A stretch of DNA of 64,000 bases from Porticoccaceae bacterium. Its GTDB lineage: Bacteria > Pseudomonadota > Gammaproteobacteria > Pseudomonadales > Porticoccaceae. Below, piece after piece: positions 22,181 to 33,629 of this stretch. The notes beneath the pieces are model-generated. The model did not search any database and was not told the origin of the DNA. It was given only the letters and a program-made list of their open reading frames with translations. Numbering within the stretch: position 1 is the stretch's first letter; each line of letters starts with the position of its first letter. The stretch lies in NCBI GenBank assembly GCA_029250825.1, contig JAQXEN010000039.1, forward strand, positions 1 to 64,000. The letters are read 5' to 3'. The position numbers and the translations under genes are program-made.

Positions 22181-23908
22181 TTAGATGACTTTTTCCGGGG
22201 TCAAAAATTGCTCGGCAAACAGCTCCGGTGGAACCGGCTTGCTCACCAGATAGCCCTGAAAACTATCGCAGCCGAGCTGCTCTAAAATATAGCGCTGCGG
22301 CTCGGTTTCAACGCCTTCAGCAACCGTGCTCATACCGAGGTTTTTCGCCAGAGCAATAATACCGGCGACAATGGCACTATCACTTGGGTCTGACTCAATA
22401 TCGGAGATAAATGAGCGGTCAATTTTCAATACATCAACGGGCAATTTTTTAAGATAATTGAGCGATGAGTAGCCACTTCCAAAATCATCCACAGCCACGG
22501 TGATACCCATTTTTTTGTTTTTGTTGAGCTCTTTGATCATCAGTTCTTGATGATCCATCAGGGTGCTTTCAGTGATCTCCAGTTCCAGAACGTTTTTAGG
22601 TAGGCCATTGCGCTTAATTAAATCCTCTAACTTGATATGCAGATCTTCCTGCACCAGATCCTTGACCGAGAGATTTACTGCAAGCACTAAGCTGTGACCC
22701 AGATCCAGCCAGCGCTTAATTTGTACGGCGACATTTTCTAGCACCCAATCGGTCAGCGGATTAATCAGCCCGCTCTCTTCGGCCAGAGAAATAAACACAT
22801 CCGGCGGCACCAGCCCTTTAAGTGGATGCTCCCACCGTACCAATGCTTCGGCACCCACAAGTTCGCCGGTCTTAAAGTCGATTTTGGGTTGATAGTGCAG
22901 CACTAGCTGATCACTTTCGATGGCTTTACGCAGCTCTTGTTCCAACTTCATTCGCTTGGCTATCTCAGCTTCCATACCCCGTTCATAGAAACAAAAATCA
23001 TTGCGCTTTTCCTTGGCCCGAAACATTGCCGAATCCGCGTGCTTGATTAGAGCGCTGACGTCTTCCCCATCATCGGGGAAAATAGAAATGCCAATACTGG
23101 TGGTGACAAACATTTTCTGTTGCATAAAGCCAAAGGGCCGGGCCACCGAGCGACAGATTTTTTCGGCCACATTGGAGGCACCATCGAGGCTGGCTATATT
23201 TTCGAGTACCACGGTAAATTCATCACCGCCAAGGCGCGCAACGAAGTCATTTTCGCGAACACAGTGCCGGATACGCTCAGCAACTGCCTTGAGCAACAGG
23301 TCTCCAGCATCGTGACCCAGAGTGTCATTGATCATCTTAAAGCGATCCAGGTCGAGAAATAAGATCGCAAAACGCTGATTTTCAGTGGCCGCACGATTCA
23401 CCGTGACCGCCAACTGCTGTTTCAAATAGGTGCGATTTGGCAGGCTGGTCAAGGGATCGTGATAGGCGAGCTTTTTAACATCCTTTTCGGCTTTGCTGGC
23501 CTTGATCAACCGTGCAACCCGCTGTTTGATCACCGAGAAATTAATCGGTTTAGAGACATAGTCCGTTGCCCCGGAGGAAAAGGCTCGAACAATGGACTGC
23601 TCATCATCCAGTGCGGTAATCATCAATACCGGAATATCACTGCCATGAGGCAACTCGCGAATCATTTGGCAGGCATCAAAACCGTCCAGCTCCGGCATCA
23701 CCGCGTCCATCAACACCAGATCAGGCATATGGCGTTTACAGATGTTCAGAGCCTGCATACCGTTATTGGCTTCTTCGACCTCGTAATTTTCCCGCGTAAA
23801 GGCATCAACCAGCGCCATGCGCACAGTGCGGTCATCATCTACAACGAGGATGTTGTTGTATTTTTCATTTTTGGTGGGAATCTTGACGGTCTCAGAGTCT
23901 AGGGACAT
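22181..23908 (-). CDS. Response regulator with GGDEF and EAL domains
   Basis: This 575-aa cytosolic protein has a receiver domain (about 18-135; phospho-acceptor Asp in DLVLMDAVMPELDGF, conserved Lys in DYVSKPINF). A GGDEF domain follows (about 150-305; intact active site RLGGDEFTVVLEN), then an EAL domain (about 320-565; EALVRWEHP, ELEITES, AVDDFGSGYSSLNYLKKLPVDVLKIDRSFI, AEGVET). Both the cyclase and the phosphodiesterase signatures look complete, so it could make or degrade c-di-GMP. Its ATG begins 3 bp after the hybrid kinase stop, making that kinase the obvious phosphodonor. Confidence 0.92.
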   Translation of the reverse strand: MSLDSETVKIPTKNEKYNNILVVDDDRTVRMALVDAFTRENYEVEEANNGMQALNICKRHMPDLVLMDAVMPELDGFDACQMIRELPHGSDIPVLMITALDDEQSIVRAFSSGATDYVSKPINFSVIKQRVARLIKASKAEKDVKKLAYHDPLTSLPNRTYLKQQLAVTVNRAATENQRFAILFLDLDRFKMINDTLGHDAGDLLLKAVAERIRHCVRENDFVARLGGDEFTVVLENIASLDGASNVAEKICRSVARPFGFMQQKMFVTTSIGISIFPDDGEDVSALIKHADSAMFRAKEKRNDFCFYERGMEAEIAKRMKLEQELRKAIESDQLVLHYQPKIDFKTGELVGAEALVRWEHPLKGLVPPDVFISLAEESGLINPLTDWVLENVAVQIKRWLDLGHSLVLAVNLSVKDLVQEDLHIKLEDLIKRNGLPKNVLELEITESTLMDHQELMIKELNKNKKMGITVAVDDFGSGYSSLNYLKKLPVDVLKIDRSFISDIESDPSDSAIVAGIIALAKNLGMSTVAEGVETEPQRYILEQLGCDSFQGYLVSKPVPPELFAEQFLTPEKVI

Positions 23909-23911
23909 TTC

Positions 23912-26900
23912 CTACTTGAGGTCATCGGCCAAAATCTCAAAGGCCGTTGCAATCCTCTTTAGCAGCTGCTCCCCATCACTTAGGTCCTCACTTGTTGCGC
24001 TATCCTCCAAGAGCTTGCTCGCCGCGACCAGCTCTCCGGCACCAAAGTTAGCGGCACTGCCTCTGATGGTGTGGGCCATATCCCGCACTTGGCGGATATT
24101 ATTTTCAGCAAGGGCCGTTGCCAACTTGCCGATATAGATTGGAGTATCTTCGAGAAAAGCGGCAACCATCGATGAGACCACTTCACCTACCGCCTCTCGC
24201 AGAGAGGCAATCACTTTGACGTCATAACTTAGGCCGCTGTATTGAGCGGCGGGATGCTGGATTAGCACGGCAGATTCATCCCGGGGGTTGCCGAGGTTTT
24301 TATCTTCCGCTTTTTGCCCTGCTTGCTGTTTCTGCTCATGATCTGTCTCGGGTTCATCTCCATACCAGAGAGCCAGCTTTTCCCTGAGACCAGCCAGACT
24401 TAGCGGTTTTGGCAGAAAATCACTCATACCGGCATGGCGGCAGATACGTTCTTCATTTTCTGAATTATTGGCAGTCATGGCGATAATCGGCAATGTGCCA
24501 GCTTGATCGCCCTCATAAATCCTTATCTGTTTGGTAGCGTCATAGCCGTTCATAACCGGCATATTGCAGTCCATAAACACTAGGTCATAATCTTCTCGAA
24601 CCACTTTCTCCAGCGCTTCTTTGCCATTGTTGGCCAGTGCCGCCTGACAGCCAAGACGCTCTAACATGGCAATCGCCACCTGCTGATTGGCACGACTATC
24701 ATCCACCACTAATATTTTACAGGAGCGGGGTGAAACGGCCTCTTCAGGCAATCGGTCATCATCAAATTCCGCTCCACTGCCAACAATAAAATATTTGGTC
24801 AATATGTCGGCAAGTGAATTAGAGCGCAGAGGTTTATTCAATCGGGGTATCGATAGCTCTCCGCCGATGGCGTCTTTGCTCCAAGGATTACTCAACATCA
24901 CGGCCAGTCGTCTATTAAAATTGGGCTCTAACTTAATAAATTTAATCAGCTCTTTGATTTCAATATCATCGATATCCTGATCGATAAACAGGATATCGAA
25001 ACAGGCCTCAGCCGGGTGCTGACGAATAAGCTCTAACCCCTGAACACCGGATTGAGCAAACTCGGCATTCACCCCCAGCGCCTTGAATTGCTGAGCAGCA
25101 AAGCCCCTGAGAATTTCGCTGGCGCTGACAAACAGCACATGAATATTATCTAGAGTATTTTTGTCGGTACTGGTGTTTTCGTCTCCCTTTGACTTTGACT
25201 CTGGCTCTGGTTTTAACTCTGAAGACTGTGCCACCAGCATCGGCAGACTAAAACCAAACTGACTACCCTGACCCAACTCACTGGAGACAAAAATATCGCC
25301 GCCCATCAACTCAACTATCTGGTTGCTGATCGCCAAACCTAAACCAGTGCCCTGATAGCCTTTTGTATTTGATGAATCCACCTGAGTAAAGGCCTCGAAG
25401 ATACGCGCCTGATCCTCTGGGGCAATCCCGATACCCGTATCCTTGACGATAAATCTCAATCTAATGGTTGAAGCGTTATCCTGTTGCCCCTTATCCGCTG
25501 CAGAGTCAGTCTTTGCGTCATACTGCAAGCTGATATGGATAGAAACTTCACCGCGCTCGGTAAACTTGAGCGCATTGCCTGCCAGATTAATCAACACCTG
25601 ACGAATTCTATCGCTGTCACTATGCAGTGCCAAAGGGACATCATCATCGATCATATAGCCAATATTAAGGTGCTTTTTCAGTGCCGTACTGGAGAGCAAG
25701 CCCACTACTTCATCAAGACTTTCATGGAGTAAATAATCGCGATTGGTAATGCTAATTTTGCCGGCATCGGCTTCGGAAAAATTGAGGATATCGTCAATCA
25801 GCGCCAACAGGTTGTCACCTGATGATTTTGCCGTCTGCACATATTCGTTCTGTTTGAGACTCAGCCCCATAGTCATCAATAGATCCAACATACCCAATAC
25901 CGCATTCATCGGTGTGCGCAGCTCATGGGTTACATTGGCGGCAAATTCCACTTTCATCTCAGCGGATGTCATGGCCATTTTCATTGCTCGCTTAAGTTCA
26001 CGGCGGCGGTTTTCCAACACCTGCATCATGCGGTTAAAGGATTTTTGCATCTCGGTGATATCTACCGGCCCCTGAATTTCAGAGCGAATTTTCTCTTCAC
26101 CCTGCTGTGCTCGTTTCATTACCTTAGATAGGCGTTCGATTGGACTGGTCAGTCGGCGAGAGAAATAAAGCAGCGCAAACAATAAAATGGCTGCGCCGAC
26201 AAAGGATGCCATCAGATTGTTTTGCAGCGTGCTCTTTTGCATCTTGTGCAGGGTGTCCTTGCCCACCACTACAGTAATATAACCCAGCAGCAGATTGTCA
26301 CTGCTCCCCATACCCATCACCTGATCGCCATCGGCACTACTGGCATAAATCGGCGCGACAAATTTCCAAAAGTCGATACTCTCGGCCACCAGACTCAACT
26401 CAGGGGCTTGCTTATTAATCGCCTCAGTTGACAGCTGGGTCGCCTGATCAACAAACTCGCTGCTCTCAGCAACCAGCATCGAGCCGGTAACAAATAGCAC
26501 ATCGGCCTTATCGGTTTCGATCATTATTCCCTTTACCCCAGGAAAGTTCATGGCATCTTCGCCAATATCACCGGCCGCCTCAGGGCTCTGATAGAGCAGC
26601 GCCACCTCACTGCGGCGAGCCAGAGATTCTGTTACCTGTTTACCCTGCAGCAATTCATGCTCTTCGATAATACTGCTGGATATCTTGCTCACCGTTACCG
26701 AGGTAACAAACGCCAAAACCAAAATGCCGAAGATAAAAACCAGAGATATCTGAGTTTTAAAGCGTAATTTGTCGAACCAATTGCGTCTAAATCTAGCCAT
26801 AGTGGGCCACCGCGCCGGCAATACTAGGTCAATTTGCGCACGCATATCATCGGTCAGACTAATACCGAGATGATTACTGGTGCGTTCATTGAGGGTGACA

Positions 26901-27763
26901 AAGACATCATCGAGGGGCTGCATCTTGCGCGCCTCTCTCCCAGCGCTACTCTGAGCACCTTGTAAGCTGGAAGACCGTTTATTGGCAACGGTTTGTGCCA
27001 GACGCCCGAGGCTCAGGCCCATTTTGTAGTTGTTTGGGTAGACAGAGAAAAGTGCGCCGCGCTTTACATGCACCGGGTTAGAGGAGAACACCACAAAGTG
27101 TTTTTCCCAGGAGGCCTGAAGCAAAATCGAGAGTACCGCATTGTTAACAAATGAGCCGTTTGGCTGAATCCATACGGCATCTTGTTCATCGAGAGTTTTT
27201 ATCAGATTGCGATAGACCCCCGCCGCGCTCCTGATATCTTCGGCCTCGTGAATCACCAGCGCAAAGCCACGATGCAAGAGAGTTCCTTCCGCCAGATCAA
27301 AATCCCGTACTGTTGTACCCGGTTTGGCAATAACATGAATTTTTTTAACCGCGGGAACCAAAAAAGATAACTTGTTTGATATGGCCTCAAAACTCGGCGT
27401 CAAGCTAATGCCATAGACTTGCTCAAAATCGCCACTGACAGCGCCGACAATCACTCTGTGATCGGTATTTTGTTCAGCGGCTTGGCGGGCCAAGCGATTG
27501 CCCAGCACCAAGACCGGTGATTGCCTATCAAGGACATGGATAAAATCCACAGGAGACTGATTTTTGGTCATGGCAACGCGCTGGACTTGCTGCTCATAGC
27601 CATCCTCGGCGCCGCGGACAATCTCCTCAAAGACGCGAGCAAAAGGCTCTCGCACCTGTGGATAGACTACCACTAGCTCCACCGCAGCAGCAGAGACGCT
27701 GCAATAGAAAATCAGTACCGCGATAGCACTTAAACATGCCCGCAGACTCCCTGTAAGTTTTAT
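23912..27763 (-). CDS. Hybrid histidine kinase with periplasmic-binding-like sensor, two receivers and HPt
   Basis: Numbering is from the GTG at 27682. Residues about 1-235 resemble an ABC-type substrate-binding protein (PF04392-like, QVYGISLTPSFEAISNKLSFLVPAVKKIHVIAKPGTTV). Transmembrane helix 1 is at about 313-335, a second extracytoplasmic loop follows, and helix 2 is at about 489-510. Then come HAMP, HisKA (NVTHELRTPMNAVLGM), an HATPase domain (DTGIGIAPEDQARIFEAF), REC1, REC2 (FMDCNMPVMNGYDA) and HPt (MAHTIRGSAANFGAGELV). The GTG falls at the end of a signal peptide. Another 27 codons upstream, open and without ATG/GTG/TTG, read IKLTGSLRACLSAIAVLIFY..SAAA, begin with ATA at 27763 and follow an AGGAGG 7 nt away. 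I therefore extend the gene to 27763. The ligand is unknown. Confidence 0.9.
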   Translation of the reverse strand: MKLTGSLRACLSAIAVLIFYCSVSAAAVELVVVYPQVREPFARVFEEIVRGAEDGYEQQVQRVAMTKNQSPVDFIHVLDRQSPVLVLGNRLARQAAEQNTDHRVIVGAVSGDFEQVYGISLTPSFEAISNKLSFLVPAVKKIHVIAKPGTTVRDFDLAEGTLLHRGFALVIHEAEDIRSAAGVYRNLIKTLDEQDAVWIQPNGSFVNNAVLSILLQASWEKHFVVFSSNPVHVKRGALFSVYPNNYKMGLSLGRLAQTVANKRSSSLQGAQSSAGREARKMQPLDDVFVTLNERTSNHLGISLTDDMRAQIDLVLPARWPTMARFRRNWFDKLRFKTQISLVFIFGILVLAFVTSVTVSKISSSIIEEHELLQGKQVTESLARRSEVALLYQSPEAAGDIGEDAMNFPGVKGIMIETDKADVLFVTGSMLVAESSEFVDQATQLSTEAINKQAPELSLVAESIDFWKFVAPIYASSADGDQVMGMGSSDNLLLGYITVVVGKDTLHKMQKSTLQNNLMASFVGAAILLFALLYFSRRLTSPIERLSKVMKRAQQGEEKIRSEIQGPVDITEMQKSFNRMMQVLENRRRELKRAMKMAMTSAEMKVEFAANVTHELRTPMNAVLGMLDLLMTMGLSLKQNEYVQTAKSSGDNLLALIDDILNFSEADAGKISITNRDYLLHESLDEVVGLLSSTALKKHLNIGYMIDDDVPLALHSDSDRIRQVLINLAGNALKFTERGEVSIHISLQYDAKTDSAADKGQQDNASTIRLRFIVKDTGIGIAPEDQARIFEAFTQVDSSNTKGYQGTGLGLAISNQIVELMGGDIFVSSELGQGSQFGFSLPMLVAQSSELKPEPESKSKGDENTSTDKNTLDNIHVLFVSASEILRGFAAQQFKALGVNAEFAQSGVQGLELIRQHPAEACFDILFIDQDIDDIEIKELIKFIKLEPNFNRRLAVMLSNPWSKDAIGGELSIPRLNKPLRSNSLADILTKYFIVGSGAEFDDDRLPEEAVSPRSCKILVVDDSRANQQVAIAMLERLGCQAALANNGKEALEKVVREDYDLVFMDCNMPVMNGYDATKQIRIYEGDQAGTLPIIAMTANNSENEERICRHAGMSDFLPKPLSLAGLREKLALWYGDEPETDHEQKQQAGQKAEDKNLGNPRDESAVLIQHPAAQYSGLSYDVKVIASLREAVGEVVSSMVAAFLEDTPIYIGKLATALAENNIRQVRDMAHTIRGSAANFGAGELVAASKLLEDSATSEDLSDGEQLLKRIATAFEILADDLK

Positions 27764-27823
27764 AGCACTACCTCCTGTACTGCCGTAAAAAAGTCAGCTA
27801 ATCGCCCTAGCAGATTACTGACT

Positions 27824-27858
27824 CATCTAGCCTGCCGTCTAGCTAAGCCAGCTAGATG
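27824..27858. other. hairpin between TonB receptor gene and hybrid kinase gene
   Basis: catctagc (27824-27831) pairs with gctagatg (27851-27858), and the loop holds a further tctagctaag palindrome. It lies just downstream of the receptor stop codon and upstream of the kinase ribosome-binding site, so it may partially terminate or set the ratio between receptor and kinase expression. There is no clear T-run. Confidence 0.35.
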
Positions 27859-27888
27859 CAATCATTACCTATACCGCTTAATAGTAGT

Positions 27889-30018
27889 TTAAAAATTGTA
27901 GCGAACTTCCCCCAATAGAGCCCTGCCTGAGAGCGGCAGGTCATTTGGAATAAATGGCATTGGATCGGAATTAGGACTGGGTTCGCGAGCGTCTTCATCG
28001 AATAAATTATTTGCCGTCAAGGCAAACTCAAGGGAGTTGGCCAGAGTTTTGCGTACCGATAGATCAAACAGTGCATAGTCATCTATATCCGGGCGCACAT
28101 CATCGCTGAGCCGATTGCGATCCATAACCCAGTTGGCGCGCAAATTAACCCTCCAGCCACTGGGCAATATCCAATCGGCGCGAAGATAGAGCTGCTTCTC
28201 TGGAGACTTGGCCGCAGGCACATCGAGTGTCTCATCGGTGGAATTTTGTACTGCTATATTGCCGGTCAAGGTAAAGTTCTCAGCGGCCTCCCAAACCGCC
28301 TCAAACTCCATACCATAACCTGTCTGCTCACCAGAATTTTGTGCGGTGCGAGTGCTGTTATTGGCATCGGGGACAAATTGGATAATATCGGCCCAGTCAT
28401 AGTAGAAAAAATTGGTCATCAATGTCAGTTCGTAATTGGGGCGATAATCAAAAGCCAGTTCATAGCTTTTAATTTCTTCCGGCTTGAGATTGATATTGCC
28501 AAGAATTAAGGGGTTGTTAATAGCTCTTGTCTGGGCAAAAGAAGGTGCGCGAAACGCCTCGCCATAGAGCAACTTGGTGGTGAGCTTATAACTGGTGGAC
28601 CAGACCAACGCCAGCCGAGGATTAGTGGTAGCGCCAAAATCTGAATAATTATCATGTCGCAGTCCTGCGGTTAACTCCCAGTCATTGGCCAGTAGCCAGA
28701 CATCCTGCAAAAACACATAACTATTATCGCGACTGTCTTCGGTAAGAAATACAAATGGGGTATCGGACACATCCACCAAAGGATCTCCGGGGAGAATCAG
28801 CATGCCAGTGTCCGGATTGATGCCAAAGTTTTTGGTCTCAGTGATCTTATCAATTTCCCCATCATAATAGCCGGCACCTACGCTGATATGGTGCTTGGAG
28901 ATACCACTGTGTTCGAGGCGCACATCAAACCTGCTATGACGCTCAAAGATCTCTGGGTTGCCAATTACACCTTCCGGGAAGGGAGGAAATATCGGCACGC
29001 CGAATGGATCGAGAAAGGGGCCAGTGGAGCCTGCAGGGTAAAGAACAAAATCGCCCTCCACTTCCTGAGAGGTATCAAAGTAACTGGTTTGGATTTCAAT
29101 TAATGTTTCATCGAAAATATCTTCATCGGTATAAGTTAGATCAACATTAAACCGTTGACTAGAAAATTTATTCTCTGGATTAAGTGCTTGAGCAGCACCG
29201 GCACCATCGCCGATATTGTTACGAATTTGACTGCCGGCCCTAAGGCGTAATTTTTTATAACTCGCCTCGAGACGCAATTCGATATTTTCTGAAGACCGAT
29301 TTACTGAGCCCGGCGCATTTGAAACAGTGGTTCCGGTAATAAAATCAATTAAGCTCTGTGCATCGCTGTCGATCTGCGAATCGGATCCATCGCTTTTTGT
29401 AAATTCAACACTGCCCATATAGGCCAGATCACCTTTTTTGCCAGCGCCCGTAAACCACACATCAGTAGTATCAAAAGAACCGACCCTAACGCCAGCAGAA
29501 TTATTTTCTATCTCCTGAGGCGTCTTGGTAACTATATTAATTACCCCAGCAAAAGCATCGGCACCATAGAGCGCCGAACCGGGCCCACGAATCACTTCGA
29601 TTCGCGAGATCGCCTCAACCGGCATACCGCCCCAGACAAGATTGCGGTCGCCTTGAAATAAATTAGTAATGGGGATTCCATTAATAAGCATCAAAACCTG
29701 AGGGCTAAAATCTGAGGAGATACCACGAAAAAGATATTCTGGATTATAAATGGCACTCAAACTGACATGCAGACCGGGCACAGACTCCAAGACCTGATCA
29801 ATATCTCGAGCACCCATAGCGCGGATCTGACTGGCAGTAATCACAGAGGCCACCGCGGGGGCTTTGGCTATTGGCTGAATGATTCCAGTGGCAATCGAGA
29901 CATAGTCCTCATCGCCATATAGTCCAGCAAAATCTACATCCGACGCGAGACTGTTCTCGGTAAATATCGTGCCACAGGTCAAACCTAAAATAACAAATAC
30001 TGCATACAGCTTAGTCAT
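27889..30018 (-). CDS. TonB-dependent outer membrane receptor
   Basis: This 709-aa energy-coupled outer membrane importer has a signal peptide (about 1-25, FVILGLTCGTIFTENSLAS). The plug domain lies at about 50-165 (PAVASVITASQIRAMGARDIDQVLESVPGLHVS, IEVIRGPGSALYGADAFAGVINIVTK). A 22-strand barrel follows, ending LLGEVRYNF with the C-terminal Phe needed by BamA. Similarity is to the CirA/FepA/BtuB class, but the substrate cannot be inferred. Its start lies 3 bp after the stop of a citrate-synthase-like gene, so it is translated with metabolic genes rather than with an ABC transporter. The kinase with a binding-protein-like sensor follows. Confidence 0.93.
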   Translation of the reverse strand: MTKLYAVFVILGLTCGTIFTENSLASDVDFAGLYGDEDYVSIATGIIQPIAKAPAVASVITASQIRAMGARDIDQVLESVPGLHVSLSAIYNPEYLFRGISSDFSPQVLMLINGIPITNLFQGDRNLVWGGMPVEAISRIEVIRGPGSALYGADAFAGVINIVTKTPQEIENNSAGVRVGSFDTTDVWFTGAGKKGDLAYMGSVEFTKSDGSDSQIDSDAQSLIDFITGTTVSNAPGSVNRSSENIELRLEASYKKLRLRAGSQIRNNIGDGAGAAQALNPENKFSSQRFNVDLTYTDEDIFDETLIEIQTSYFDTSQEVEGDFVLYPAGSTGPFLDPFGVPIFPPFPEGVIGNPEIFERHSRFDVRLEHSGISKHHISVGAGYYDGEIDKITETKNFGINPDTGMLILPGDPLVDVSDTPFVFLTEDSRDNSYVFLQDVWLLANDWELTAGLRHDNYSDFGATTNPRLALVWSTSYKLTTKLLYGEAFRAPSFAQTRAINNPLILGNINLKPEEIKSYELAFDYRPNYELTLMTNFFYYDWADIIQFVPDANNSTRTAQNSGEQTGYGMEFEAVWEAAENFTLTGNIAVQNSTDETLDVPAAKSPEKQLYLRADWILPSGWRVNLRANWVMDRNRLSDDVRPDIDDYALFDLSVRKTLANSLEFALTANNLFDEDAREPSPNSDPMPFIPNDLPLSGRALLGEVRYNF

Positions 30019-30021
30019 TAC

Positions 30022-30828
30022 TCACACCCTCCAGTGCTTGACCGTCTCGTCTCCTGTAAAGTTGAGTCGAGAAGTCCGTAAGGGAAAAAAACATCCTTCC
30101 TGTTGATCTAATGCATCAATAAAGCAAGGCATTGCTCCGGCAGTAAAAGCCAATGTGGCCATATGGTAAAATTCCATAGGCTTCAACCCTTCATCGGCCA
30201 ATAAGCCAGCACAAACAGCCGCAATATTGATCTCATATTTAAACCGGCTAGCGCTTAAATACTCAGCTACAGCAAAGGCAAGTTTGATATATTTGCCTTC
30301 ACCGCAACCTATTGAACGGGCAAAATCCATCATTGGCTCTACCCGTTCATCCCCAGAAACTAATGGCCGTCCATATCCGTAGACGCTGCGAAACTGCTTT
30401 AACTCTGTTTTAATTATTTGTTCTAAAGTCTCACCCTCAGCCAATCGCTTATCGGCTCGGTATAAAAAATCTGTCGCCCCTTTTATGGGCTTTAATCCAT
30501 AGAGAGTGGCCTCGGTCACTGCCACTGATGCCGCCGCGGCCAGCGCCCCAGTTGAGCGCGCGGTGCCGGCCAATGCCGATACGCGGTTATTCCAGATACG
30601 CGGATCGGGAAAGCTGGTACAGATAACCCACATTCCCTCCATTAAACGCGCGATTTTTGACGACTCTTTTCCGGTGCTGGCAAACAGCAAATACTCCATC
30701 CATGAGCTGTCACTTAAATCCTTAAATACATCTTTGCCCCGCAGCACGACCTTTCCTTCAGGAGACCAGCCACCCATTGAGGTGCACCAATTATCCTCGA
30801 ACTTCTCTAACTTACTGTGAACAGGCAT
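30022..30828 (-). CDS. Half-length citrate-synthase-superfamily protein (subunit 1)
   Basis: The 268-aa protein resembles the short citrate synthase-like/citryl-CoA lyase group. It contains FPDPRIWNNRVSALAGTARS, VTEATLYGLKPIKGATDFL, SVYGYGRPLVSGDERVEPM and KYEINIAAVCAGLLADEGL. Comparing these blocks with citrate synthase, the usual active-site His positions (GPLHGGA, GFGHxVY) read Lys/Ile and Arg, and the later catalytic Asp is not evident. Activity as a plain citrate synthase therefore looks unlikely. It is preceded by a second half-length relative 27 bp upstream and followed within 3 bp by the TonB receptor. The function is not known to me; a heteromeric C-C lyase/ligase or CoA-dependent enzyme working with the ThDP protein is an inference. 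Confidence 0.65.
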   Translation of the reverse strand: MPVHSKLEKFEDNWCTSMGGWSPEGKVVLRGKDVFKDLSDSSWMEYLLFASTGKESSKIARLMEGMWVICTSFPDPRIWNNRVSALAGTARSTGALAAAASVAVTEATLYGLKPIKGATDFLYRADKRLAEGETLEQIIKTELKQFRSVYGYGRPLVSGDERVEPMMDFARSIGCGEGKYIKLAFAVAEYLSASRFKYEINIAAVCAGLLADEGLKPMEFYHMATLAFTAGAMPCFIDALDQQEGCFFPLRTSRLNFTGDETVKHWRV

Positions 30829-30855
30829 ACAGTTTTCTCACTGGGCCGAATGGCC

Positions 30856-31647
30856 TCACGGATTTAATTTGAAGCCGTTGGCAAAAAATGGATACTTCCG
30901 CCAACCCAGTCGCTCTTGCTCGAGGCTGTGAACTGCCGCTCCCGGCAGACGCAATAATAAAAACAGCATCTCGGCTTGTTCCGGTAGAAAATCAAGATCA
31001 TAGAGAGCCGCAGCGGCAACGCCAGAAAAGGCTAAGGGACAGCCGGCAAACGCTTCTAATTCAGTGCGCTGATTATTTAACCAATGCAGGTGGGTGCCTT
31101 GACCAATATCCGCGAGATACGTCAGGGTCTGTTTGACAGGGGTTGGACAGCTAACGCCATTGGGATCAAAACCCGGTGTATGCTCCATAGGTAGCCAAAC
31201 ATCTTCACGTGCGGGCTGGGGTGGCTGTTTAATCAACTGCTGCCAAGCTTTAAGGCTAGTCTGACACTGCTGCCAATACTCCAGAGCATGGAAGACTTCC
31301 CGGGCGCCACCCAAGTTGCCAGCACCCACGGCAGTTGCGGCGATAATTGCCGAAGCATGAGTGGAACCGCCGACTCCGGCGCTCATAGCGGCCCTGACAC
31401 TGTGATCTCTGGGGCCGGGATTGGCCAGCGCAATGGCCAGCCCCTGAAGTAGCGCCGACTGTTCCGGCGTTGGCTGTTGCTGTTTAAATAGCAGGTAGAG
31501 GTAATCTATATAACTCGCATTTTTTAATATATCGCCATAGATATCATAGCCACCGCAATAACAGCTAGCAGCGGCAAATGGATTATCCAGTTCGGGAGTT
31601 TCACGCCAAATTTTTGTGGTGATTTTCTCTATCGGGTTATCGCTCAT
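30856..31647 (-). CDS. Half-length citrate-synthase-superfamily protein (subunit 2)
   Basis: The 263-aa protein has LANPGPRDHSVRAAMSAGVGG, AVGAGNLGGAREVFHALEYW, EHTPGFDPNGVSCPTPVKQ and a C-terminal ERLGWRKYPFFANGF. This is the order of blocks seen in citryl-CoA lyase-like proteins. NLGGA replaces the usual HGGA, while the His in EHTPGFDP may stand for the second catalytic His. It is different in sequence from the neighbouring 268-aa protein, so the two may form a heteromer rather than being redundant copies. It overlaps the upstream ThDP-enzyme gene by 4 bp (ATGA), a strong sign of translational coupling. The family call is moderate and the reaction unknown. Confidence 0.62.
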   Translation of the reverse strand: MSDNPIEKITTKIWRETPELDNPFAAASCYCGGYDIYGDILKNASYIDYLYLLFKQQQPTPEQSALLQGLAIALANPGPRDHSVRAAMSAGVGGSTHASAIIAATAVGAGNLGGAREVFHALEYWQQCQTSLKAWQQLIKQPPQPAREDVWLPMEHTPGFDPNGVSCPTPVKQTLTYLADIGQGTHLHWLNNQRTELEAFAGCPLAFSGVAAAALYDLDFLPEQAEMLFLLLRLPGAAVHSLEQERLGWRKYPFFANGFKLNP

Positions 31648-33434
31648 CCACTTTGCAACACGTTAGTGCGCAAACCGATTGGAGGTGGCTCATTAGTATC
31701 GATGCGCACATCGAGTAAAGTCGGTCCTTTGCGTGCGCAGATAGTTTTTATATCGAGATTATTTAAGTCTGCCGGTGAGTGGATAATATGCCCAGGTGCT
31801 CCCATGGATTTAGCCATCGCTGAAAAGTCTACCGGAGTTAACTGATTGGCTATGGGTTCTGCGCCAGTCAGTGTTTGGCCATGCCTAACCATCCCGTAAG
31901 CGTGGTCATTTAAGATTACAAAAATAATGGTTAATTTTTCTTCTATGGCAACTGTCAGTTCTTGGCCGCTCATCAGCCAACTGCCGTCACCAGTAATACA
32001 GACCACCGGAGTATTATCCAAAGCCATACTGGTTCCCACAGCATTGCCAATAGCCCAACCCATTGAGGCAAAATCAACTGAGGCACTAAATAAACCCCCT
32101 CGGGCTTCACGCTTACCCGAGAACCTTCGATCGAATGGGTTTAGGTAATGGGTTCCCCAGGCCAAGCTATTTCCGGTATCGACTAGGTATCGAGTGTGCG
32201 CAGGAAATAATCTGGGTAAATCCCGCATCAGCCGTTGAGGCTTAATTGGCGTTGCATCGGAACAGTAGCCCTCTTCGTCGTCAAACTGAAAATGTCGAGT
32301 TAAGGTTGCTTCCGACTCGGCACTGGCCGACTTGACTAGACGCAGATAGTTTTTTGTATCGATCCCGAAGCGACTAGCTATGCGATCAAAAATTGTTTCC
32401 AGGCAGCCGCGCACATGGAGCTTTGCCATAGGCGTTCGCGTCAGGTTTGCCTCGGTGGACTCCACATGCACCAGTTTGCCATTGAGAAGATTTGTGGTAT
32501 CCCAAGCATTACTAGAAAACTCTCCAAAGCGCGCACCGATTGCTATTACCAAGTCGACACTGGGGTTAGCCAACACCTCGCTTGCATCAGTATGACCGGC
32601 GAAGCCGAAGACACCCTTAAATTGTGGGTGATAAGGACTGACCAATCCTTTACCTTGGGGCGTCACTATAAGAGGCGCACCCGTTTTAACCACAAGGGAA
32701 AGAATACTGCCAATAGCATCACAGGCTTCATCGCCAATAATAAAGACAGGATTTTTCGCCGAACTCAACTCATGAAAGAGCTGGTCTACTGCATGATCAT
32801 CAATCAGCGCAGGCCTATCCAATAAATTATCCAGTTGATAGTGAGTCTGGCTATTAAGGTTATCCATCGCCATCACATCTCGCGGCATACTGATATGCGC
32901 CGGCCCTGCTGGCGAGCCCATAGCCGACATAATGGCGGTAGCGAGTTTGTGTTCAAACTGGTCAATATGGGAGACAAGGGTGTTATATCTGGTGCAGTGG
33001 GAGTAGAGACCCACTGTGTTGACGCCGGTGCAGGAAGAGTCTTGAATGGCACCTTTGCCAAAGGTTGAAATCGCTGTCTGGGCGGTGATGACTAACATGG
33101 GTACGTTGTTTTCGTAGGCTGAAGCGACCCCGGTAATCATATTGGTAGCGCCAGGTCCGGTGGTTGAGCAACAGACACCCAGTTTGCCACTATTTCTCGC
33201 ATAGCCATCGGCCATAAAGGCGGCACCGGTTTCGTGGCGGGCTACCACAGCGCGAACTCCGCCGCGCCGCTCGCTACGTGCCAGTGCATCATAGAGGGGT
33301 TCTATGGCTCCCCCTGGCACACCAAAAACATATTCGACCCCCAGTTGTTCAAGATAAGCGACTAACAAATCCGCCATCTTTGGTCCCATTGGTGTAACAG
33401 CCCGGCACCGTTCTTTACCTTCTATGTCGGTCAT
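31644..33434 (-). CDS. Thiamine-diphosphate-dependent enzyme, acetolactate-synthase-like
   Basis: This 596-aa protein has the three-domain ThDP fold. The Pyr domain has catalytic Glu in VVARHETGAAFMADGYAR (LGVEYVFGVPGGAIEPLYDAL before it). A central domain follows (VDLVIAIGARFGEF). The PP domain has the GDG..N metal/ThDP motif (VCITGDGSWLMSGQELTVAIEEKLTIIFVILNDHAYGMVRHGQ). It belongs to the acetolactate synthase/oxalyl-CoA decarboxylase/sulfoacetaldehyde acetyltransferase superfamily. No small regulatory subunit (ilvN) is nearby, so a biosynthetic acetolactate synthase is unlikely. It heads the minus-strand unit with two citrate-synthase-like genes and the TonB receptor, suggesting a dedicated 2-oxoacid or acyl-CoA reaction. 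Confidence 0.8.
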   Translation of the reverse strand: MTDIEGKERCRAVTPMGPKMADLLVAYLEQLGVEYVFGVPGGAIEPLYDALARSERRGGVRAVVARHETGAAFMADGYARNSGKLGVCCSTTGPGATNMITGVASAYENNVPMLVITAQTAISTFGKGAIQDSSCTGVNTVGLYSHCTRYNTLVSHIDQFEHKLATAIMSAMGSPAGPAHISMPRDVMAMDNLNSQTHYQLDNLLDRPALIDDHAVDQLFHELSSAKNPVFIIGDEACDAIGSILSLVVKTGAPLIVTPQGKGLVSPYHPQFKGVFGFAGHTDASEVLANPSVDLVIAIGARFGEFSSNAWDTTNLLNGKLVHVESTEANLTRTPMAKLHVRGCLETIFDRIASRFGIDTKNYLRLVKSASAESEATLTRHFQFDDEEGYCSDATPIKPQRLMRDLPRLFPAHTRYLVDTGNSLAWGTHYLNPFDRRFSGKREARGGLFSASVDFASMGWAIGNAVGTSMALDNTPVVCITGDGSWLMSGQELTVAIEEKLTIIFVILNDHAYGMVRHGQTLTGAEPIANQLTPVDFSAMAKSMGAPGHIIHSPADLNNLDIKTICARKGPTLLDVRIDTNEPPPIGLRTNVLQSG

Positions 33435-33573
33435 CTTTTTCCCTTATAAATTAATGCGATACAAAGAAATCATGAAGTATTTTTGTTAAATTCATTAATA
33501 GATGATGATTTGTCGCTTATCAACCTAATCCGCTGACAGCTATGCATCATGGGGCGGTTTGGTTAACCGCGTC

Positions 33574-33601
33574 TCGACATAGACAGCTGAGTGGTTACAA
33601 T
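33574..33601 (+). promoter_or_regulatory. candidate sigma-70 promoter of the 33630 gene
   Basis: TCGACA (33574-33579) and TACAAT (33596-33601) are separated by 16 bp, each one base off consensus, and would start transcription about 20 bp before the ATG at 33630. It lies in the 195-bp divergent region shared with the ThDP operon. I saw no clear operator there. Confidence 0.45.
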
Positions 33602-33629
33602 GCCCTCCTAAAATTGACAAAAGACCACT

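Follow-up and report, generated by a model that had tools for sequence, protein, structure and literature searches.

The stretch of Porticoccaceae DNA analysed here (64,000 nucleotides, hereafter the window) carries six open reading frames (ORFs) on its minus strand at 22181-33434, and these genes form a real conserved unit; they are not chance neighbours. A biosynthetic role for the module is well supported, and we somewhat favour the view that it is a self-contained circuit that makes, recaptures and senses a small molecule and sets c-di-GMP. The genes and their parts are as follows:

31644..33434, minus strand: ThDP enzyme gene (Pfam TPP_enzyme N/M/C)
30856..31647, minus strand: CS1, 263 aa, predicted citryl-CoA-lyase fold, canonical catalytic residues absent
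30022..30828, minus strand: CS2, 268 aa, divergent CS1 paralogue, canonical catalytic residues absent
27889..30018, minus strand: TonB-dependent outer-membrane receptor, 709 aa (Plug and TonB barrel)
26810..27745, minus strand: portion resembling periplasmic binding proteins of ABC_sub_bind type, encoded as a protein of its own in relatives and fused to the kinase here
23912..27682, minus strand: hybrid histidine kinase fused to the binding protein (HAMP, HisKA, HATPase, REC, Hpt)
22181..23908, minus strand: REC-GGDEF-EAL output, the C-terminal part of a protein of about 1500 aa in relatives
33435..33629, no strand assigned: divergent intergenic region ahead of the operon, presumed promoter, aligned with 11 relatives

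The initial annotation had described six closely spaced genes on one strand, and all of its coordinates and spacings were confirmed: the ThDP and CS1 genes overlap by 4 bp, and gaps of 27, 3 and 3 bp separate CS1 from CS2, CS2 from the receptor, and the kinase from the regulator. Pfam likewise recovered the domains it had named (TPP enzyme, TonB receptor, kinase domains, GGDEF and EAL). The block CTATTA(A/C)T is kept among the 11 aligned relatives within the presumed promoter. In a search for a riboswitch or other RNA, the window had no Rfam match at the gathering threshold, and 27650-27950 had none at E<=1.

To describe gene order in relatives we used the best 80 named loci of 358, scored only where contigs allow a test. 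Among these, the ThDP gene lies upstream of CS1 in 68 of 69 testable loci, CS2 lies downstream of CS1 in 72 of 73, and the receptor follows the CS genes and shares their strand in 56 of 61. In 49 of 61 testable loci the binding protein is also encoded on this strand. Counting both strands, it is present in 41 of the 46 loci that reach 20 kb; 38 of these 46 long loci have GGDEF and EAL in a single ORF, and 8 have no such ORF. In the 29 best-scoring relatives, the order and strand of ThDP-CS1-CS2 are kept throughout (29/29), and the receptor is also present in 27, the remaining two loci stopping at a contig edge. The module was found at several unrelated genomic sites, and its carriers without a MAG label in the record include MOLA455 (L071), SAR92 H231 (L077), Marinobacter sp. 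C7 and two Collimonas, sp. OK412 among them. At the level of the class, CS1 profile matches occurred in 41 of 369 sampled Gammaproteobacteria genomes, own genome included; in the 20 of these that were inspected, some on short contigs, the ThDP gene was not seen in 5, the receptor in 5 and the binding protein in 7. The kept order and strand strongly support the earlier proposal of one sense-import-process module, and the scattering across genomes that would have spoken against it is contradicted, as the genes stay together.

By sequence, the ThDP enzyme is nearest, among solved structures, to natural-product-type acyloin synthases and not to acetolactate synthase. Its best solved relatives are BbmA and CsmA (8x3x 2.2e-85, 8x3z 1.1e-72), and acetolactate synthase 6lpi is more distant at 5.8e-61, these being pairwise sequence scores and not a tree. 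The catalytic Glu68 is present in 70/70 homologues. Arg occurs in 0/70 at position 306 (W35 F19 Q6 V4 A3 L2 T1), which we take to match R276 of E. coli AHAS II, the residue holding the second 2-oxoacid. Position 519, presumably equivalent to the pocket-shaping Trp W464 of AHAS, is Gly in 70/70, as it is at the aligned position of BbmA and CsmA. A separate AHAS-like gene lies elsewhere in the same genome; the own-genome paralogue L066 keeps the AHAS Arg and Trp, and paralogue L067 has A and S there. An ordinary AHAS is ruled out by the changed specificity residues and the gene context.

CS1 and CS2 had no Pfam match at E 0.01, and they matched the NCBIfam citryl-CoA lyase models only with scores that fall far short of the cut-off (best E 2e-10 and 5e-11). 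Structure models bear out the citrate-synthase-like fold that the initial annotation had assigned to them: the CS1 model (pLDDT 88.6) and the CS2 model (pLDDT 89.3) both had citryl-CoA lyase 6hxp as their best Foldseek hit (E 4.9e-9 and TM-score (query) 0.67 for CS1; E 4.9e-10 and 0.77 for CS2), each at about 20% identity. The models point to proteins that resemble 6hxp and the C-terminal module of ATP-citrate lyase in fold and size, but in which the catalytic His, His and Asp are replaced. At these sites CS1 (n=75) has P69 L2 R2 A1 Q1 at 77, P74 A1 at 162 and S46 T27 P2 at 208, and CS2 (n=72) has P70 A1 S1 at 76, R72 at 154 (beside an alignment gap) and A45 S20 T5 G2 at 203. The two are divergent paralogues (profile match 96.6%) that are nearly always paired and carry new invariant residues, and we propose CS2 as a hetero-partner of CS1. 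An ordinary citrate synthase is ruled out by the absent catalytic residues together with the gene context. As the known catalytic residues are missing, that CS1 and CS2 are enzymes at all is something we infer.

Two known types of pathway resemble this enzyme set. In the cyanobacterin furanolide pathway, the ThDP gene (CybE) also stands beside a CoA-using condensing enzyme (CybF), with BbmA and CsmA as ThDP homologues, but the module has two citryl-CoA-lyase-fold proteins in place of CybF. The parts of the source covered here annotate CybF as a 3-oxoacyl-ACP synthase and mention no receptor or c-di-GMP sensor (PMC8777810). No KAS family member was among the listed matches of the six genes or the flanking genes scanned, and we rejected a furanolide cluster because the KASIII-like partner was not seen. 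The carbazole pathways (NzsH/NzsJ, CqsB3/CqsB1) also pair a ThDP alpha-hydroxy-beta-keto acid synthase with an acyl-condensing partner; in contrast to the module, that partner is KASIII-like and is followed by a cyclase, and NzsE serves as carrier protein, with no receptor noted in the portion of the article covered (PMC7466098). No description of the module or its molecule appeared in the literature searched, most subscription journals lying outside that search, and the covered parts of PMC12247030 and PMC13288894 hold nothing on it.

Relatives add further genes inside or directly beside the module, each type limited to few loci: a sulfotransferase (L051, L052), a carbamoyltransferase (L056; with an SDR in L145), an O-methyltransferase (L109, L124), an SDR (L143, L144, L270, L276), an ACP with an AMP-ligase (L185), and a MaoC-SDR with FkbH-like and ACP genes (L186/L194, one genome). 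These tailoring and carrier genes favour making over breaking the molecule, a choice that the initial annotation had left open. The sensory part varies by clade and may be BP-HK-GGDEF-EAL, HAMP-PAS-HK-REC, protein kinase-AAA-GAF-HK or a nearby chemosensory operon. Receptor and binding protein are both absent from L147, L182, L184, L185 and L186, and in L126, L140 and L142 the receptor is encoded on the opposite strand and the binding protein is missing; sensor kinases are kept with ThDP-CS1-CS2 even where both are absent, as in L182, L184 and L186, where a protein kinase-AAA-GAF-histidine kinase and a LuxR-type regulator accompany them. Wsp-type systems place c-di-GMP under chemosensory control, and a likeness to them is seen in six relatives, in which CheR, CheW and MCP genes adjoin the module or lie one ORF off; no such genes were seen beside the module in the window.

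In the circuit that we favour, CS1 and CS2 would together form a heteromer that depends on CoA or a carrier protein and uses a new active site to elaborate the product of the ThDP step, holding the place of the KASIII-like enzymes in the furanolide and carbazole pathways. The product is assumed to exit the cell, although no exporter is visible, and we infer that it is the ligand of the operon's own receptor, which would return it to the periplasm only; such a return fits the finding that none of the six genes encodes an inner-membrane transporter. In LuxP-LuxQ, the AI-2 system, a soluble periplasmic binding protein serves a membrane hybrid kinase with a phosphorelay, and relatives of the module similarly have a separate binding protein gene, its product secreted as judged by eye, beside such a kinase. 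By analogy, the secreted binding protein may hand the product to the kinase, and the phosphorelay would set the GGDEF/EAL output, whose domains are present, and hence raise or lower c-di-GMP. Unlike LuxP-LuxQ, the module has a PF04392-type and not a LuxP-family binding protein, and it adds a TonB receptor, a GGDEF-EAL output and synthase genes in the same row. By sensing the molecule, the module probably switches the cell between free-living and attached life.

More tentatively, the module may represent a new class of autoinducer, in which the ThDP enzyme and a heteromeric CS-fold enzyme make a diffusible signal, TonB-dependent recapture brings it to the periplasm alone, and binding protein and kinase read it and set c-di-GMP, with tailoring of sulfo-, carbamoyl-, methyl- or glycosyl-type giving private dialects in relatives. 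The repeated deletion of the whole module within the genus would fit a social trait that is costly and has been lost. Should the reading hold, roughly one in nine of the class's sampled genomes (41/369, by CS1 match) has the core of an unrecognised biosynthetic, probably signalling, system; a new class of chemical signal is tied directly to c-di-GMP; TonB receptors gain a role in periplasm-only sensing; and a CS-fold pair lacking the known catalytic residues performs new enzyme chemistry.

The same tailoring genes, and the difference in sensor type between clades, would also be expected of a secondary metabolite aimed at other organisms, with production and attachment switched by a separate environmental cue that the sensors read. 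We consider this unlikely, though the best of the alternatives, as the receptor and binding protein in the enzymes' gene row suggest a ligand that matches the product. Slightly less probable is uptake and catabolism, in which the receptor imports a nutrient, the ThDP and CS-like enzymes cleave it and the kinase signals that it is present. Both ThDP and citryl-CoA-lyase folds are able to work in the cleavage direction, the receptor shares an operon with the enzymes, and the records of several carriers bear the names Cycloclasticus, Porticoccus or Marinobacter, genera that include hydrocarbon degraders. However, the lyase catalytic residues are gone from CS1 and CS2, relatives add sulfo-, carbamoyl- and methyltransferase, SDR and ACP genes, and no inner-membrane transporter, CoA-ligase or dehydrogenase was found among the six window genes (Pfam, NCBIfam).

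Alpha-hydroxy acids bind Fe(III), and an alpha-hydroxy-carboxylate chelator could be regained through the TonB receptor and sensed when loaded. By sequence, the solved structures nearest to the receptor are Cir, BtuB and enterobactin receptors, most of the alignment falling in the plug. Its best NCBIfam match is a siderophore-receptor subfamily (TIGR01783), whose cut-off of 223.5 bits it misses with a score of 157.6. Against a metallophore, which we regard as improbable, stands the c-di-GMP output, and the earlier suggestion of a chelate as ligand found no support: no siderophore synthetase or exporter occurs among the six genes (Pfam, NCBIfam), and three short intergenic regions held no Fur-box-like site better than shuffles, the best matches to the consensus (10, 12 and 11 of 19) being equalled by 298, 48 and 32 of 300 shuffles. 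Chance adjacency of primary-metabolism acetolactate synthase and citrate synthase paralogues has family-level similarity in its favour, but we give it almost no weight, since it is already contradicted by an order kept across class and sites, the altered ThDP specificity residues (70/70), the absent CS catalytic residues and the AHAS-like gene elsewhere in the genome.

The sensor genes of this genome are rearranged. The initial annotation had reported a kinase fused to a binding protein; the fused ORF is indeed present in the window, but it is a private rearrangement, as is the split-off regulator, and relatives have a separate binding protein and a kinase-GGDEF-EAL protein of about 1500 aa. 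In the assembled sequence the fusion comes from a lost stop (TGA to TGG at 26807-26809), and the kinase ORF ends at a gained TAG (23912-23914) where L071 has CAG. At 27745-27743 the window has CTG in place of the ATG found in L070 and L071. A stretch resembling a signal peptide, judged by eye, precedes the listed GTG, and the kinase therefore probably starts about 63 bp further upstream. The ABC_sub_bind match in the window kinase is weak (Pfam, E 1.2e-4, under its cut-off); in L032, PF04392 is the sole hit of the binding protein, and the kinase protein has HisKA, HATPase, two REC and Hpt. The nearest solved structures of the binding protein are 3lkv and 3lft. In the split-off output protein, the I-site, GGDEF and EAL motifs are all intact.

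Re-examination of the window bore out all six ORFs, the strand, and the spacings claimed in the initial annotation, and searches of Pfam and NCBIfam upheld the thiamine-diphosphate (ThDP) enzyme, the TonB-dependent receptor, and the REC-GGDEF-EAL regulator. The positions discussed here lie in contig C71, which the window covers from base 1, in a 2.33-Mb draft genome of 93 contigs:

22181-33434, minus strand: the six genes
23912-23914: TAG at the kinase end (CAG in L071, a relative's locus)
26807-26809: TGG (TGA stop of the binding protein in relatives' loci L070 and L071)
27743-27745: CTG at the binding-protein start (ATG in L070 and L071)
27759-27792: GGCAGTACAGGAGGTAGTGCTATAAA block, preceding the binding-protein part
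33435-33629: upstream of the operon, with a CTATTA(A/C)T block kept in 12 aligned sequences

For the citrate-synthase-like proteins CS1 and CS2, Pfam gave nothing at E 0.01, and in NCBIfam their similarity to citryl-CoA lyase stayed below the cut-off. Their fold was confirmed by predicted structures (pLDDT ~89 each), for both of which the best structural match was the citryl-CoA lyase 6hxp.

The module is real and widespread. CS1 matches came from 50 of 143 related genomes, counting the window's own, although the weakest of these matches (such as those in genomes G101 and G134) are not the module. As for which genes stay together, the order and strand of ThDP-CS1-CS2 were kept in all 29 best-scoring loci of other genomes; the receptor was present in 27, the remaining two being truncated by contig ends, and some of the 29 contained frameshifts or stops. 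A second scan retained the best 80 of 358 loci, a set that overlaps the first, and three of the 80 (L081, L102, and L148) had no retained CS1 ORF. Among testable loci of the 80, ThDP lay upstream of CS1 within ~3 kb in 68/69 (in L131 it is on the other strand), CS2 lay downstream in 72/73, and a same-strand receptor and binding protein were found in 56/61 and 49/61, respectively. When the 46 loci of at least 20 kb were considered on either strand, the binding protein was found in 41 and the receptor in 44. A GGDEF+EAL ORF was present in 38 of these 46 and absent from L093, L094, L107, L115, L126, L142, L145, and L147, of which L115 is a remnant left by deletion. The binding protein is absent and the receptor on the opposite strand in L126, L140, and L142, and L147 has no receptor. 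The L147 record, titled Planctomycetota, has ThDP-CS1-CS2 beside genes of clusters c54 and c55, which also adjoin the Agitococcus locus L142; misbinning or transfer is possible. A tandem pair of receptor genes adjoins CS1-CS2 in L111, L126, and L179.

Across the class, a CS1 profile matched 41 of 369 sampled genomes at E<=1e-20, own included. In 20 of these, several on short contigs, we found CS2 in 18, a kinase in 17, ThDP and the receptor in 15 each, and the binding protein in 13. The phylum sample gave 38 matches in 398 genomes at 1e-3, only ten of them, own included, above 100 bits; low-scoring matches probably represent ordinary citryl-CoA lyases, and the one that we inspected by eye (L188) adjoins a CoA-transferase-like gene. 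No description of the module was found in the literature, where longer result lists were covered in part.

The solved structures closest to the ThDP enzyme by sequence are BbmA and CsmA, followed by acetolactate synthases (AHAS). The catalytic Glu is present in all 70 module sequences, window included. These 70 differ from AHAS in never having Arg at the arginine position and always having Gly at the tryptophan position; two paralogues in the genome of the window have Arg and Trp (L066) and Ala and Ser (L067). According to one study (PMC12395478), CybE, of the cyanobacterin furanolide pathway, joins two 2-oxoacids into an acyloin acid, and CsmA and “BpmA” are its homologues; the probable source is that study's reference 28, Liu et al., Nat. 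Chem. 2025.

Profile comparison indicates that CS1 and CS2 are divergent paralogues with a common PxPR motif. In 6hxp, we take two His and one Asp to be the catalytic residues; in the alignment these are instead Pro77, Pro162, and Ser208 in CS1 and Pro76, Arg154 (beside a gap), and Ala203 in CS2. Among the counted sequences, which exclude those beyond length limits, none had His or Asp at these positions, and a single CS1 had His at neighbouring position 76. Other residues are invariant: Arg80 and His156 in 75/75 CS1 sequences, and Trp79, Asn81, Arg154, Asp160, Glu161, Arg162, and Asn201 in 72/72 CS2 sequences. We infer that the pair forms a putative hetero-oligomer with a new site.

Neighbouring genes bear on whether these enzymes make or break a compound. 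In or directly beside relatives' modules lie genes for a sulfotransferase (between receptor and CS1; L051, L052), a carbamoyltransferase (3' of CS2 in L056; in L145 paired with an SDR, both lying between the receptor and the binding protein), an O-methyltransferase (L109, L124; also adjoining L273 on the opposite strand by BLAST), an SDR (between ThDP and CS1 in L143, L144, and L270; 3' of CS2 in L276), and, more loosely associated, a glycosyltransferase 3' of the receptor (L118, L131). In another clade, ThDP-CS1-CS2 adjoins an ACP and an AMP-ligase (L185), and in one genome (L186/L194) it shares a row with a MaoC-SDR, an FkbH-like protein, and an ACP. These biosynthetic genes favour synthesis over breakdown, and the module is probably biosynthetic. 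Two papers (PMC7466098, PMC8777810) offer a precedent in which a condensing enzyme, KASIII-like or of 3-oxoacyl-ACP-synthase type, comes after a ThDP enzyme. In the clade with the ACP genes, the receptor and binding protein are absent in L182, L184, L185, and L186; in L182, L184, and L186, ThDP-CS1-CS2 occurs with a protein kinase-AAA-GAF-histidine kinase and a LuxR-type regulator, this giant kinase being a 653-aa kinase-AAA ORF in L185.

The initial annotation described the kinase as carrying a binding-protein-like sensor. A hybrid kinase and weak ABC_sub_bind similarity were indeed found in Pfam and NCBIfam, but in relatives these are separate genes: a binding protein of ~310 aa, which has a start of its own, precedes a ~1500-aa HK-REC-Hpt-REC-GGDEF-EAL protein. 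The two are fused in the window because TGA reads TGG, and the regulator is split off because TAG replaces CAG; these changes and the altered start may be real or assembly errors. The window regulator has intact GGDEF, I-site, and EAL motifs, and 3lkv and 3lft are the solved structures nearest to the binding protein. The GGCAGTACAGGAGGTAGTGCTATAAA block is kept with small changes in 6/9 aligned sequences and has no Rfam match. None of the six genes encodes an inner-membrane transporter, which fits delivery of the ligand to the periplasm alone. We lean slightly towards a complete circuit in which a product is made, recaptured, and sensed. That it is a true autoinducer system, whose signal is recaptured by the receptor and sensed by binding protein and kinase to set c-di-GMP, seems to us a tentative and somewhat doubtful reading. 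A chemosensory operon occurs near the module in six relatives, directly adjoining it in L146 and one ORF away in L101, L111, L114, L129, and L135; in L101, Pfam identified CheR, CheW, and MCP, and the intervening ORF is REC-PAS-GGDEF-EAL.

Module sites are unrelated: some adjoin VC0807/Sua5, whereas L040 adjoins a class-III aminotransferase and L045 lies near a DNA-binding HU/IHF-type gene. Within the genus, CS1 was matched in 16 of 50 genomes, own included, and seven of the 34 genomes without it were inspected between VC0807 and Sua5. Six sites (L253, L254, L255, L257, L258, and L259) comprised one that was empty (273 bp) and five with deletion scars. What is left in L253 is ThDP codons 1-26 and, after them, the regulator end; L255 keeps a 308-aa ThDP start, and L257, L258, and L259 keep regulator tails. 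The module seems ancestral in the genus and repeatedly deleted, as expected for a dispensable, perhaps social, trait. The seventh site (L256) had just a 34% match to the kinase.
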